Origin: Fidelibacterota bacterium
GTDB taxonomy: Bacteria > Fidelibacterota > UBA8477
DNA: 36,090 nucleotides
Reading direction: 5' to 3'
Assembly: GCA_021734045.1 (NCBI GenBank)
Contig: JAIPJR010000021.1
Span: 1 to 36,090, forward strand
Positions 8,421 through 36,090 of this stretch are shown one piece after another. Numbering within the stretch: the stretch's first letter is position 1; every line of letters starts with the position of its first letter. The notes below the pieces were generated by a model. That model made no database searches. It saw nothing but the letters and a program-made list of their open reading frames with translations, and had not been told where the DNA came from. Position numbers and translations under genes: made by a program.

Positions 8421-8454
8421 GTGTTAGTGTATGTGTTAGTGTATGTGTTAGTGT
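8421..8454. repeat. 12-bp tandem repeat (GTGTTAGTGTAT), 2.8 copies
   Basis: There are three adjacent copies of GTGTTAGTGTAT, the last truncated. On the minus strand one frame reads a Thr/Leu/His repeat ending at a stop (complement 8404-8402), which could be the tail of a lost integrase, but this is weak. It lies between the terminase remnant and tRNA-Phe. Confidence 0.7.
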
Positions 8455-20920: not shown

Positions 20921-21285
20921 GTTCAATCCGCGTTGCCCACGGCCAAAAATTCTTCATCTGTGATTGTCTGCGTTTATCTGTGGCAAGAGTGAGAGAATTC
21001 CCAAATCACAAGCACCAAATATCAAACAAATCCCAAATCACAAGCATCAAAACTCAAACAAATCCCAAATCACAATTTTCAATTTTCAAAACGGAAATCC
21101 GTCCAATCCGCGTCATCCGCGGCTAAAAATTCTTCATCTGTGATTGTCTGTGTTCATCTGTGGCAAGAGTGAGAGAATTCCCAAATCACAAGCATCAAAA
21201 CACAAACAAATCCCAAATCGCAATTTTCAATTTTCAAAACGGAAATCCTGTCCAATCCGCGCCATCGGAGCTAAAAAAATAACCT
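20921..21285. repeat. Imperfect 180-base tandem repeat with 32-base subunits
   Basis: The unit starting GTTCAATCCG at 20921 recurs at 21101 (GTCCAATCCG), exactly 180 bases on, and partly again near 21250. Inside it, 32-base subunits starting TCCCAAATCACAAGC lie at 20999 and 21031 in the first copy and only at 21179 in the second, so copies differ by whole subunits. Related sequence lies on the opposite strand in the second island (28752, 29559 and 29889). Confidence 0.8.
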
Positions 21286-22213: not shown

Positions 22214-22251
22214 ATTCGCAATATGCGAATCGCGAATCGCGAATCGCGAAC
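22214..22251. repeat. ATTCGCA palindrome and 7-bp tandem repeat (GCGAATC)
   Basis: ATTCGCA-ATA-TGCGAAT (22214-22230) is a 7-bp inverted repeat. It overlaps 3.7 tandem copies of GCGAATC (22225-22251). The pair sits 27 bases before the winged-helix gene and may act as its operator, or it may be a simple-sequence expansion. Upstream start codons in this frame would translate the repeat, so I reject them. Confidence 0.7.
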
Positions 22252-30404: not shown

Positions 30405-31652
30405 ATGAAATTGTCATCCACTTATAGACGAATACTCCTGCTCATGATTGTTATCATCCCGGTGTTGACACAATGCAGCATTCAGAAGAGAGGAAAAATG
30501 GCCAAAATGGAATCAGGAGAGCTTAATCTACACACCCGCCTGCTGACACTGGATTCCCATGTGGATACGCCCTTGCGCATCATGCATGACAATATTCATC
30601 TGACCGAGCGACACAGTCCTGAACTGGACAACAGCCGACTTGATTTTCCCAGAATGCGTGAAGGCGGACTGGACGGGGTCTTTTTTGCCGTGTGGACTGC
30701 ACAGGGCGAGCGAACGCCGGAAGGGCACCAGTCCGTTTTTGAAAAAGCTGACCATATTCTGGATGTGGTTGATGCTGAAATCGGGAAATACAGTGATCAG
30801 GCCGCCACTGCCACGCGCTCCACAGACCTGAAACGACTGGCCGGGGAGGGTAAATTCGCCATTTTTCTGGGTATGGAAAATGGCTATCCCGTTGGCCGGT
30901 CGTTGGATAACCTGGATTATTTTTACAGGCGGGGCATTCGCTACATGACCCTCTGTCATACGAAGAATAATGAGATTTCAGATTCGTCTAACGATGAGCC
31001 CGAACACGGCGGTTTGAGCCCCTTTGGTGTTGAAGTGGTGAAACACATGAACCACCTGGGGATGATGGTGGATGTCTCCCATCTGTCGGATGACGCCGTC
31101 CGTAATGTGCTGGAAATCTCGTCAGTACCGGTCATCGCCTCCCATTCCTGTGCCAAAGCATTGTGTGACAATCCCCGAAATCTTTCGGACTCCCTCCTCA
31201 CGGCAATAGCCCTGCAGGGCGGTGTGGTCCAACTGGCATTTTTCAGTGAGTATCTGGAGACACCCCGGCCCGATGCCGCTCGTGATTCTGCCTTCCAGGC
31301 GTTTCGCAATAAATGGGGTAACCGGTATGACCTTGACTCCCTGCAGCTGGTGGACTATCGCTGGGAGCGGGCCGAGTTGAACCAAAAATTCCCACCGCAG
31401 TTGGCCACACTGGAAACGGCTCTCAACCATCTTGATCACATGGTGAGCGTCATGGGAGTGGATCATGTGGGCATTGGCAGTGACTTTGATGGCGGAGCTG
31501 CGCTGGCGGACTGTCAGGATGTGAGCTGCTATCCCCGGATCACGGCGGCCCTGTTGAAAAGGGGGTATTCACTCGCCGATATTGAAAAAATCTGGTCCGG
31601 GAATCTTTTGCGGGTCATGACGGCCGTGGAGGACTTCTCAACGAGCCTGTAA
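30405..31652 (+). CDS. Membrane dipeptidase-type lipoprotein (peptidase family M19)
   Basis: This is a renal-dipeptidase-like zinc enzyme of 415 residues, exported with a lipoprotein signal ending at Cys 24 (VLTQC, Gln at -1). The metal ligands are in place: H52 and D54 (DSHVDTP), E158 (GMENGYP), H226 (VDVSH) and H247 (ASHS). D360 lies in HVGIGSDFDG. Family members cleave dipeptides, some with D-residues, at the C-terminal side. The likely role is peptide use or cell-wall dipeptide recycling in the periplasm. AAAGGA lies nine bases before ATG 30405. It stands alone after the repeat island, and the 272-base gap downstream separates it from the acyl-CoA synthetase gene. Confidence 0.93.
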   Translation: MKLSSTYRRILLLMIVIIPVLTQCSIQKRGKMAKMESGELNLHTRLLTLDSHVDTPLRIMHDNIHLTERHSPELDNSRLDFPRMREGGLDGVFFAVWTAQGERTPEGHQSVFEKADHILDVVDAEIGKYSDQAATATRSTDLKRLAGEGKFAIFLGMENGYPVGRSLDNLDYFYRRGIRYMTLCHTKNNEISDSSNDEPEHGGLSPFGVEVVKHMNHLGMMVDVSHLSDDAVRNVLEISSVPVIASHSCAKALCDNPRNLSDSLLTAIALQGGVVQLAFFSEYLETPRPDAARDSAFQAFRNKWGNRYDLDSLQLVDYRWERAELNQKFPPQLATLETALNHLDHMVSVMGVDHVGIGSDFDGGAALADCQDVSCYPRITAALLKRGYSLADIEKIWSGNLLRVMTAVEDFSTSL

Positions 31653-33831: not shown

Positions 33832-33863
33832 AGCCCCGGATCCTCTGGCGGGAATCCGGGGCT
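33832..33863 (-). terminator. Terminator for the large secreted protein gene
   Basis: A 10-bp perfect stem AGCCCCGGAT / ATCCGGGGCT (33832-33841 and 33854-33863) is followed on the minus strand by TTTTCATTT. On the plus strand the tail is GGTTTG, so it acts best for the minus-strand gene, though it may also stop readthrough from the acyl-CoA synthetase. Confidence 0.8.
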
Positions 33864-33952: not shown

Positions 33953-36090
33953 TTATTTAATGAACGCCATGCGTTTCACCTGACGGGTACCACCCGCTTC
34001 AAGGACATAGAGGTAGGTCCCGCTGCTCAGTTGACTGCTGCCAAACTGAACCTGATGCATACCGGCCGTCTGATATCCCTGAACCAGACTTTCAACCAGA
34101 TTACCACGAATGTCATAGATCTTCAGGCTCACTGTACCGGCTTCCGGCAGAGCGTACCCAATGGTCGTGGTGGGGTTGAAGGGGTTGGGATAGTTCTGAT
34201 GCAGGGTGTAGGCGTCAGGGATCACGACCGCAATGTCAGCATCCTCTTGGTCACCGGAACGCGTCATCTTGGCCATACTGCCGGCTGCTGGTGAGTAGTA
34301 GCTGTCCAGCGTGACGGTCACATTATTGTGAACCTGGATTTCACGAGCCCAGAATGCACCCACTGCCTCGACGCCATTTTTCATGGAGAGTTTACTATCC
34401 ATGGCAAACACATTGGCGTAAACCGTGCTGTTGTATTCGAATTTGACATCATTATCATCACCATGATGCCCATGGCCATGGCCGTCTTCGCCACTGACGG
34501 TAATTAGAATGTCCGCTGCAGTGATGGACGCATCGTCAGCGGGACCCAGATAAGCCCGTTCATCCACCTTCAGGCGCCGCTGAATACGAATCTCGGTACC
34601 AGCTTCAACCTGGAGTGACCCACGCTGTTTGATTCTGAGTTCGCGCACATTGTAAACACCACCGGTGAGCACCAGAGTCGCGTTCTGCTTGATTTCGATT
34701 TTATCATAATCCCCGGCCGCCAGTGTTTCGGACTGATTCCGGCGTACGGTGACATCTTCCGTACCCGGTGCGGCAGCGGCAACGGGTGGCAGATTCACAA
34801 ACTGGGGAACACTCAGCGGTGAAAATTCACTGCCGGCGATGTTTCCGCGGCTGCTCAGGACATTGTAATAGGCATCGCCACCAATCTGAGACTGGCGTCC
34901 GATACGAATCGCGTTGGCCCGAATGGAGTATCCACCTGCGGTGGTGACATCTTTGCCGATGGTCAACTCATAAGCCGGACCATGATGGTGGTCGTCATCA
35001 TCATCATCGTCGTCATCGTCATGGTGCCCACCACGGCCATGATCATTACCTCCATGACGTCCGCCGTCTCTGCCACCATGGCGACCGTTGCGTCCATGAT
35101 CATTGTCGTCGTCATCGTCGTCATCATTATCGCAATCACCGTCGTCATCGTCATCATCATTATTGCTGTGATGACCGGAGCTTGCGCTTGCTTCATTCAC
35201 GATCACATTGCCTGATGTCACGTCCACATTCCGTTTCAGATCCGTTCCGGACAATGAGAAAAGCACGGCATCGGCCAGATCGGTGGTCACATTGATGGTG
35301 ACGGTGAAAACATCTTCCACTGTGCCGCCACAGCCATCATCGGCTGTTACGGTAACCGTGGTTGATCCCAATGAGCCCAGGGTCACCGTCAACGTGTCGC
35401 CGGCCAGTGAGATTCCTGCCACTGAAGAATCAGCAATGGCGTCACTAAATTGCAGTGAATGGGCATCCGGATCGCTGAAGACGCTATTGAGATCAATAGT
35501 GGTACTCAGGACACTGGTTCCGTAGGAGAGCACCACTTCACCTACCGGATTATCCACCACCGGCGCATGATTAATCACGCGTACCGTGCGCACGACTTCA
35601 GCAGTATTGCCACTGGCATCCACGGCGGAGTAGGTAATGGTATATTCACCCACCTGGCTGGTGTCCACCGTGCTGGCAACTGTCATGGCCGGATTGGCGT
35701 CGCAATTGTCCGCCACGGAGGCACCCGGATCGGCATAGCCATAGAGACACACCACCGAGTCAGGATTGGCGCCGGACAGTGTAATGACCGGTGCTTCGTC
35801 GTCCACATTGACGGTGACGGAGACCGTATCGCTGGCAGAGGCTTGGCCATCATTGACGGTAAGGATATAGTCATGGACGCCACCACCGATGGAGTCGGTG
35901 AAGGCGGCAGCCGAACTGACTTCCGTCCCATCCAACATCCAGCTGTAGCTAAGGGCATCACCATCAGGATCACTTGAAGCCGAGCCGTCCAGGGTGACAT
36001 CGGTGCTGCCAATGACACAATCAAAGGACTGATCCGCACCGGCATCGGCTACCGGCGGCTGATTGGTAGCTACCACGATGGTCACCTCGT
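33953..36090 (-). CDS. Large secreted PKD/Ig-like protein with type IX-type sorting domain (5' end outside window)
   Basis: The frame is open to the window edge, so the N-terminus is missing. At least 711 residues are visible. In order they are a PKD domain (PVADAGADQSFDC...LDGSASSDPDGD, about 10-93), an HYR/DUF5011-like domain (about 94-172), a cadherin-like domain (about 173-270), and a beta-helix-like region (about 275-610). A 65-residue Asp/His-rich insert splits this region at about 304-368. The final 80 residues are a sorting domain (HQNYPNPFNPTTTIGYALPE...GTYLYVLEAGG...KRMAFIK). In Bacteroidota this domain directs export by the type IX system and is cleaved. The protein is probably cell-surface attached or released. 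The GTG at 36085 is an internal codon, not a start. Function is unknown. Calcium or other metal binding by the acidic insert is plausible. Confidence 0.9.
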   Translation of the reverse strand, partial: EVTIVVATNQPPVADAGADQSFDCVIGSTDVTLDGSASSDPDGDALSYSWMLDGTEVSSAAAFTDSIGGGVHDYILTVNDGQASASDTVSVTVNVDDEAPVITLSGANPDSVVCLYGYADPGASVADNCDANPAMTVASTVDTSQVGEYTITYSAVDASGNTAEVVRTVRVINHAPVVDNPVGEVVLSYGTSVLSTTIDLNSVFSDPDAHSLQFSDAIADSSVAGISLAGDTLTVTLGSLGSTTVTVTADDGCGGTVEDVFTVTINVTTDLADAVLFSLSGTDLKRNVDVTSGNVIVNEASASSGHHSNNDDDDDDGDCDNDDDDDDDNDHGRNGRHGGRDGGRHGGNDHGRGGHHDDDDDDDDDDHHHGPAYELTIGKDVTTAGGYSIRANAIRIGRQSQIGGDAYYNVLSSRGNIAGSEFSPLSVPQFVNLPPVAAAAPGTEDVTVRRNQSETLAAGDYDKIEIKQNATLVLTGGVYNVRELRIKQRGSLQVEAGTEIRIQRRLKVDERAYLGPADDASITAADILITVSGEDGHGHGHHGDDNDVKFEYNSTVYANVFAMDSKLSMKNGVEAVGAFWAREIQVHNNVTVTLDSYYSPAAGSMAKMTRSGDQEDADIAVVIPDAYTLHQNYPNPFNPTTTIGYALPEAGTVSLKIYDIRGNLVESLVQGYQTAGMHQVQFGSSQLSSGTYLYVLEAGGTRQVKRMAFIK
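34981..35172 (-). repeat. GAC/GAT-rich low-complexity stretch coding Asp/His runs
   Basis: Read on the minus strand this encodes about 65 residues with 28 Asp and 11 His, including runs of six, seven and ten Asp separated by a Gly/Arg/His/Asn part. Both Asp codons alternate, so the DNA is not a pure triplet microsatellite, which argues that the protein sequence is kept by selection. A smaller His/Gly/Asp patch lies at 34455-34490. Confidence 0.85.

Follow-up and report, generated by a model that had tools for sequence, protein, structure and literature searches.

What might a bacterium gain from carrying dozens of aspartate and histidine residues, packed almost side by side, in the middle of an exported protein? 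The question is raised by a gene at the edge of contig JAIPJR010000021.1 of the Fidelibacterota bacterium assembly GCA_021734045.1 (2.54 Mb, 92% complete; genome G000 below). The window, meaning the whole stretch of 36,090 nucleotides that was analysed, is this entire contig (G000:C92), and the gene encodes a cargo protein of the type IX secretion system (T9SS) with an Asp/His-rich tract, loop 1, inside a predicted beta-solenoid. Judging from the sequences, loop 1 and a second, smaller loop keep their position and composition among homologues and vary in length, and binding of metal ions or charged surfaces is their probable role. The reading that we prefer, at a probability of roughly 0.5, is that the protein would be an adhesin of the cell surface or matrix, with flexible polyanionic loops that bind cations at many weak sites.

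Loop 1 comprises 67 residues, among them 28 Asp, 14 Gly, 11 His, 6 Asn and 5 Arg, and bears a net charge of -23; its Asp residues include runs of 6, 7 and 10, and its His residues two pairs and a triplet (HH, HH, HHH). The earlier note on this DNA had described an Asp/His-rich insert of 65 residues at positions 34981-35172, with runs of up to ten Asp accompanied by His pairs and triplets. This insert is real, in both frame and content, with limits that now fall at residues 305-371 (34976-35176). The second His/Gly/Asp patch, which the same note placed about 500 bases further along the gene, is equally present: it is loop 2, GEDGHGHGHHGDDND, approximately 490-530 bases beyond loop 1. Seven consecutive Asp codons are matched five times in the 2.54-Mb assembly, always in overlapping positions inside loop 1, and the reversed control pattern has 0 matches there. 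Among the 20 sorting-domain loci of the genome, a set that includes this protein and consists of partial loci with a rough scripted choice of open reading frame, some perhaps not real genes, this protein is the only one in which a stretch of 15 residues with two or more His contains over six Asp, Glu or His; here the count reaches 15 of 15.

A profile of the solenoid domain recovered 14 copies in 12 of the 245 phylum genomes, the phylum being the scope of the search and not a claim about the limits of the family, and all 14 were read. Every one has an acidic tract at the loop 1 site, and at the loop 2 site Asp, Glu and His make up at least one third of the residues in 14 of 14, the weakest case being L041 (GDRHYA). 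The domain body measures 274-281 residues, loop 1 13-73 and loop 2 6-32 (loop lengths that include a few flanking residues), the shortest loop 1 being THEHEQDGHNHDH, of 13 residues; alignment gaps outside the two loops are confined to the vicinity of the domain's C-terminal end. Pooled over the 14 tracts, loop 1 consists of 40.6% Asp, 14.0% Gly, 12.1% His, 7.5% Asn, 6.7% Glu and 4.7% Arg, with Gln at 0.9%, Pro at 0.6%, Thr at 0.4% and Lys at 0.2%, and pooled loop 2 contains 28.3% His and 25.8% Asp. The body contains 8.0% Glu, 7.3% Lys, 6.8% Asp and 0.9% His, such that the ratio of Asp to Glu is about 6:1 in loop 1 versus 0.85:1 in the body. The His content of loop 1 ranges from 0 to 38% across copies. 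The earlier note had looked to homologues for conservation of charge, and in this respect its claim stands, as no copy is without an acidic tract and the compositions are related; the length of loop 1 is nearly unconstrained, which is, for length, what the note had named as counting against it. Variation in length on this scale leaves no room in the tract for a fixed, conserved metal site. Beyond the profile search, a single-sequence search of genome contigs matched the close relative L033 alone, one such search of plasmids and one scan of viral contigs found no homologue, and the domain profile had 0 matches at E≤1 among the sequences of solved structures.

The codons of the loops suggest how such a composition is maintained. 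Loop 1 of the window copy uses GAC and GAT 14 times each. Within Asp runs, 82 of 162 pairs of neighbouring codons match (84.0 ± 5.8 in shuffles), and the order of the two codons is thus random, with no sign of recent triplet slippage. In the closest comparison, between G000 and genome G001, the tracts are separated by whole-codon gaps and, across 56 aligned codons, by 14 nonsynonymous as against 22 synonymous changes; the Nei-Gojobori synonymous rate (dS) is saturated in loop 1, and its ratio of nonsynonymous to synonymous rates is therefore omitted. Among identical residues, two-fold third positions have diverged at 13 of 30 in loop 1; the figures are lower for the adjacent domain (3 of 37, Fisher p 0.001), the N-terminal part (13 of 61, p 0.047) and the C-terminal part (2 of 21, p 0.012). 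Together with the kept composition, this divergence implies that the DNA of loop 1 turns over rapidly while the composition of its product is held. Base preferences hardly separate loops from body (pyrimidine-ending Gly codons 0.70 versus 0.68; AGN among Ser codons 0.41 versus 0.42). Point-mutation spread of GAY codons could explain Asn and Gly as a source of the composition; however, His, Tyr, Ala and Val all lie one transversion from GAY, and the 694 loop codons include 110 His beside only 8 Tyr, 16 Ala and 5 Val, an excess for which such spread does not account. The suggestion in the earlier note that mixed GAC and GAT reflect selection on the protein is accordingly one that these sequence comparisons support.

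Export of the protein is indicated by its C-terminus, where the sorting domain of the earlier note can now be named as T9SS type A, with both PF18962 and TIGR04183 above their cut-offs. The machinery search covered SprA and the PorV family, and the same genome contains SprA (TIGR04189) above its cut-off and eight above-cut-off matches to the PorV family. This would place the protein at the cell surface. The 5' end of the gene is missing from the window; a relative that is 94% identical across residues 372-598 has an open frame of 1150 codons with a hydrophobic stretch near its start, as judged by eye, and the longer relative in G001 carries an additional second PKD domain and an N-terminal region (approximately residues 1-375) with no Pfam match at E≤0.01. 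In the window copy, the stretch between the immunoglobulin (Ig)-like domain and loop 1 has no above-cut-off family match. The whole protein has 57 matches in this genome at E≤0.001, nearly all within the sorting domain, which is common to dozens of its proteins; the solenoid domain is present once. PF23981 (DUF7305) matches 10 of the 11 family members scanned at E≤0.01, and above the 27-bit cut-off it has eight copies in 6 of 100 genomes searched, all of this protein family. As the window copy scores 20.9 bits, below the gathering cut-off, we file it on sequence as DUF7305-like and not as a DUF7305 member; L068, a pilin-like protein, is another below-cut-off DUF7305 relative and has no long Asp run.

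An AlphaFold2 model built from two sequences predicts the solenoid confidently at approximately residues 181-250 of the submitted stretch and moderately to about residue 320. In both this model and that of a shorter construct (mean predicted local distance difference test, pLDDT, of 61.6, with the first 70 residues below 50), loop 2 forms a local dip below pLDDT 50 amid better-modelled strands. In VIA-align, the top matches are DUF3494 ice-binding proteins (Z 12.4-13.7; 9li0_A with a root-mean-square deviation of 2.6 over 127 residues), followed by adhesin 4wa0 (12.3), bactofilin 6rib (11.4), SRRP adhesins (10.8 and 10.2), pilin ComZ (9.9) and tapirins (9.9 and 9.4), and Foldseek gives no match at E≤0.001. 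We read the predicted fold class as a beta-solenoid and do not conclude ice binding from these matches: at Z 9.4-13.7 and 10-19% sequence identity, from a model of low mean confidence, the ice-binding proteins, bactofilin, tapirin and SRRP adhesins would share the fold only. The insertion of loop 1 between beta strands, as the earlier note had it, agrees with the alignment and with the solenoid predicted further on; the strands on either side of the tract are modelled at low confidence. Disorder of the loops is suggested by their composition and variation in length.

Features of the gene and of the genes upstream of its homologues
Feature	Position	Strand	Details
T9SS cargo (surface protein) gene	33953..36088	-	Open frame to contig edge; 711 codons visible, 5' end cut off by contig end
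PKD domain, residues 9-93	35810..36064	-	PF18911, 30.8 bits (cut-off 27)
Bacterial surface Ig-like domain, residues 102-171	35576..35785	-	PF16403, 55.2 bits (cut-off 27)
Loop 1, 67-residue Asp/His/Gly-rich tract, residues 305-371	34976..35176	-	Same site in 14/14 homologues
DUF7305-like predicted beta-solenoid, part after loop 1, residues 372-598	34295..34975	-	PF23981, 20.9 bits (below cut-off 27)
Loop 2, GEDGHGHGHHGDDND, residues 533-547	34448..34492	-	Same site in homologues, 6-32 residues
T9SS type A C-terminal sorting domain, residues 633-706	33971..34192	-	PF18962, 37.6 bits (cut-off 27); TIGR04183, 36.7 bits (cut-off 23)
Terminator-like hairpin 3' of gene	33832..33863	-	12-pair stem, then T-rich tail; 1 found, shuffle mean 0.5
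Upstream sensor-regulator, L035	L035:3-3248	Same as homologue	Reg_prop, Y_Y_Y, HisKA, HATPase, receiver, AraC-type helix-turn-helix (HTH)
Upstream sensor-regulator, L104	L104:3662-7774	Same as homologue	Reg_prop, Y_Y_Y, HisKA, HATPase, receiver, AraC-type HTH
Upstream sensor-regulator (part), L034	L034:1-927	Same as homologue	Receiver and AraC-type HTH in C-terminal part
Upstream sensor-regulator (part), L043	L043:3-1037	Same as homologue	Receiver and AraC-type HTH in C-terminal part
Upstream sensor-regulator, L105	L105:4194-7547	Same as homologue	Reg_prop, Y_Y_Y, PAS, LuxR-type HTH; no kinase match

How, then, might such a protein work? On our preferred reading, export by the type IX system would deliver an adhesin to the cell surface or matrix, where a stalk of PKD and Ig-like domains would carry the DUF7305-like solenoid and two flexible polyanionic loops would project from it. 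Dense Asp carboxylates, aided by His imidazoles, could bind divalent cations at many weak sites (calcium most likely; zinc, copper or nickel by way of His), and the bound cations would bridge the protein to anionic polysaccharide, neighbouring cells or a mineral surface. The selected trait would be charge density and His content and not a fixed site, with length free to drift. The sequences establish where the loops lie, what they are made of and how far their length varies, as well as the export signal and the T9SS genes; cation binding and adhesion are inferred, and the adhesins among the fold relatives (4wa0, SRRP and tapirin) count in favour. Several observations weigh against this reading. 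Both loops of L039 lack His and those of L038 contain a single His apiece, loop 2 of L041 is short and not net acidic, and loop 1 admits the Arg noted above; no loop residue is conserved throughout the 14 copies. Neither His fraction (rho 0.34, p 0.23) nor length (rho -0.17, p 0.55) correlates between the two loops among these copies, which speaks against joint tuning. Nearly all of submitted residues 1-175, which comprise loop 1 and the conserved part that follows, fall below pLDDT 50, and since the conserved part is modelled as poorly as loop 1, the model says nothing specific on disorder of the latter. Asp runs also occur in other kinds of proteins of the phylum, and a study of ZrgA reports that its His-rich loop is not essential (PMC9820375).

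A bare charged spacer is a serious rival, which we hold to be possible, if doubtful. The loops would then be soluble disordered bristles in which only hydrophilicity and negative charge matter and nothing specific is bound, keeping solenoids apart or simply marking a site that tolerates insertions. The range of loop 1 lengths, the lack of any residue conserved throughout, the in-frame indels that separate the two closest genomes and the rapid turnover at third positions all agree with such a role. Against it, Lys, Thr, Pro, Gln and Glu would be expected freely in a spacer, whereas the first four each stay below 1% of pooled loop 1; moreover, His reaches 12% in loop 1 and 28% in loop 2 versus 0.9% in the body, and the same composition is repeated at a second, separate site. 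An artefact deserves far less credence: a simple GAY repeat recently expanded in one metagenome-assembled genome could account for the imperfect arrays, with periods of 3, 6, 9 and 12, that Tandem Repeats Finder reports, although these repeats match at just 68-84%. We reject slippage and sequencing error as the source of the tract, given the random codon order, the in-frame indels, the diverged third positions and the acidic tract recurring in 14 of 14 copies from 12 genomes.

Two further proposals would assign the loops a specific task. They might scavenge extracellular zinc (or nickel or copper) and pass it to an uptake system. The proposal has parallels in the discussion of His-rich loops in ZnuA and ZrgA and in the exoprotein ZepA, which is reported to mediate zinc uptake (PMC10957091). 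We consider this unlikely: loop 1 contains much more Asp than His, and in one copy the loops lack His altogether; the protein is built with an Ig stalk instead of a small solute-binding fold, and ten neighbouring proteins scanned against Pfam (other neighbours being seen as open frames only) include no metal transporter. It is this dominance of Asp, together with the stalk and the neighbours, that leads us to prefer adhesion or a matrix role over zinc uptake. Ice binding, with the loops modifying an ice face of the solenoid, is very improbable: the best fold matches are of DUF3494 type and Ice_binding (PF11999) matches weakly in 2 of 11 members, but the adhesin and bactofilin scores follow closely, Foldseek has no match at its threshold, and PF11999 is not reported for the domain of this copy at E≤10. 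To our knowledge, a large charged loop is unlike the faces with which proteins bind ice.

Asp-rich, acidic proteins that handle calcium or mineral, such as aspein and calsequestrin, resemble the loops in composition; they are eukaryotic and of unrelated folds, and no homology is claimed. BapA of Paracoccus denitrificans, which presumably leaves its cell by a type I route, unlike the T9SS cargo described here, offers a bacterial likeness. BapA is a large calcium-binding protein that Paracoccus requires for attached growth; the study mentions aspein, considers Asp-rich proteins and, as speculation, brings in calcium mineral (PMC5588039). Closest in behaviour, by analogy, are the variable His-rich loops of ZrgA and PA4063, periplasmic zinc-binding proteins of Gram-negative bacteria in which disordered His-rich stretches of variable length within a beta-containing fold add weak metal sites (PMC8561739, PMC9820375). 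In PA4063, a zinc site receives contributions from two such loops located on the same face (PMC8561739), the stretch of Vibrio cholerae ZrgA is also rich in Asp and Glu (PMC8561739, PMC9820375), and the function of His/acid loops on zinc solute-binding proteins is called enigmatic (PMC9820375). ZrgA and PA4063 are, however, ferredoxin-like, periplasmic and encoded with ABC transporters, unlike the present Asp-dominated T9SS cargo, whose predicted solenoid stands on an Ig stalk. As for a solute-binding fold of the ZnuA/ZrgA type, the model here is a low-confidence beta-solenoid, and the upstream side of the gene is missing from the window. A literature search on DUF7305 found nothing, and none of the papers among the matches listed treats Asp/His loops of T9SS proteins or of Fidelibacterota.

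We regard the novelty as moderate, the kind of loop being known and its domain and secretion context, at a conserved position, being new. New are this domain context and the presence of a sensor gene upstream of five of the seven readable copies; variable His/acid loops are known from zinc solute-binding proteins, and here an exported solenoid unrelated to them shows a similar design at two fixed positions. The natural variants, with loop 1 of 13-73 residues and 0-38% His on a near-constant body, constitute a ready series for relating loop length and His content to the binding of cations or mineral. Few members of the phylum have been cultured, and the literature matches on it include one isolate.

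Upstream DNA is readable for 7 of the 14 copies, the remainder being cut by contig ends. In the five mentioned, a sensor-regulator of hybrid two-component type, or part of one, lies directly upstream on the same strand; in the other two cases the upstream position is taken by an HSP90 gene (L039) and by a frame that matches nothing in Pfam at E≤1e-5 (L036, which has a C25 peptidase downstream). Given the small number of Y_Y_Y-domain matches (1-9 per genome in seven genomes, four falling in the upstream frames), this adjacency is unlikely to be due to chance, though the copies, being related, do not count as independent cases. Searched against the genome of the window, where the gene's own upstream region is missing, the G001 neighbour found distant response regulators only (best 33%). 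Sensors of this type in Bacteroidota usually govern the use of polysaccharides, and the recurrent gene offers a route to asking which signal the protein answers. One could go further and imagine a sensor-controlled T9SS solenoid whose Asp/His loops act as a glue, polyanionic and tunable, that would hold metal-loaded polysaccharide or mineral particles; the adjoining sensor would switch the protein on at a suitable particle, and in-frame indels would tune loop length to the local ionic environment. As a whole, we deem this chain speculative and unlikely. On the opposite strand near the gene, the window encodes a membrane dipeptidase of family M19 (30405-31652; PF01244, 329.7 bits), with a lipoprotein-like start by eye. 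The hairpin beyond the gene's 3' end is weak evidence for a terminator.

Eight consecutive Asp codons occur in 22 of 244 phylum genomes and the reversed control pattern in 5. Of 21 such loci that were read, which leave out the window's own and at least two further places, three belong to the solenoid family. Others resemble, from their sequences and without family matches, RNase E/G, cytochromes, a CsgG-like protein and short proteins with acidic tails; an Asp run in itself is therefore not specific. Runs of eight or nine Asp with basic or His flanks are found in RNase E/G-looking proteins (L070, L083 and L085), and runs of nine to thirteen stand at about one place in an exported protein of CsgG-like appearance in several phylum members (L071, L072, L074 and L080). 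In genome G218, L078 (L078:553-2019) has a pilin-like N-terminus and a run of 14 Asp followed by Gly/His repeats, before a region that looks beta-rich; it has no Pfam match at E≤0.001 and, from its sequence, may be a convergent case in another export context. Elsewhere in the window, tandem repeats were noted at 20999-21075 (32 bases, 2.4 copies, 93% matches) and, as perfect arrays, at 8421-8454 (12 bases, 2.8 copies) and 22225-22250 (7 bases, 3.7 copies).
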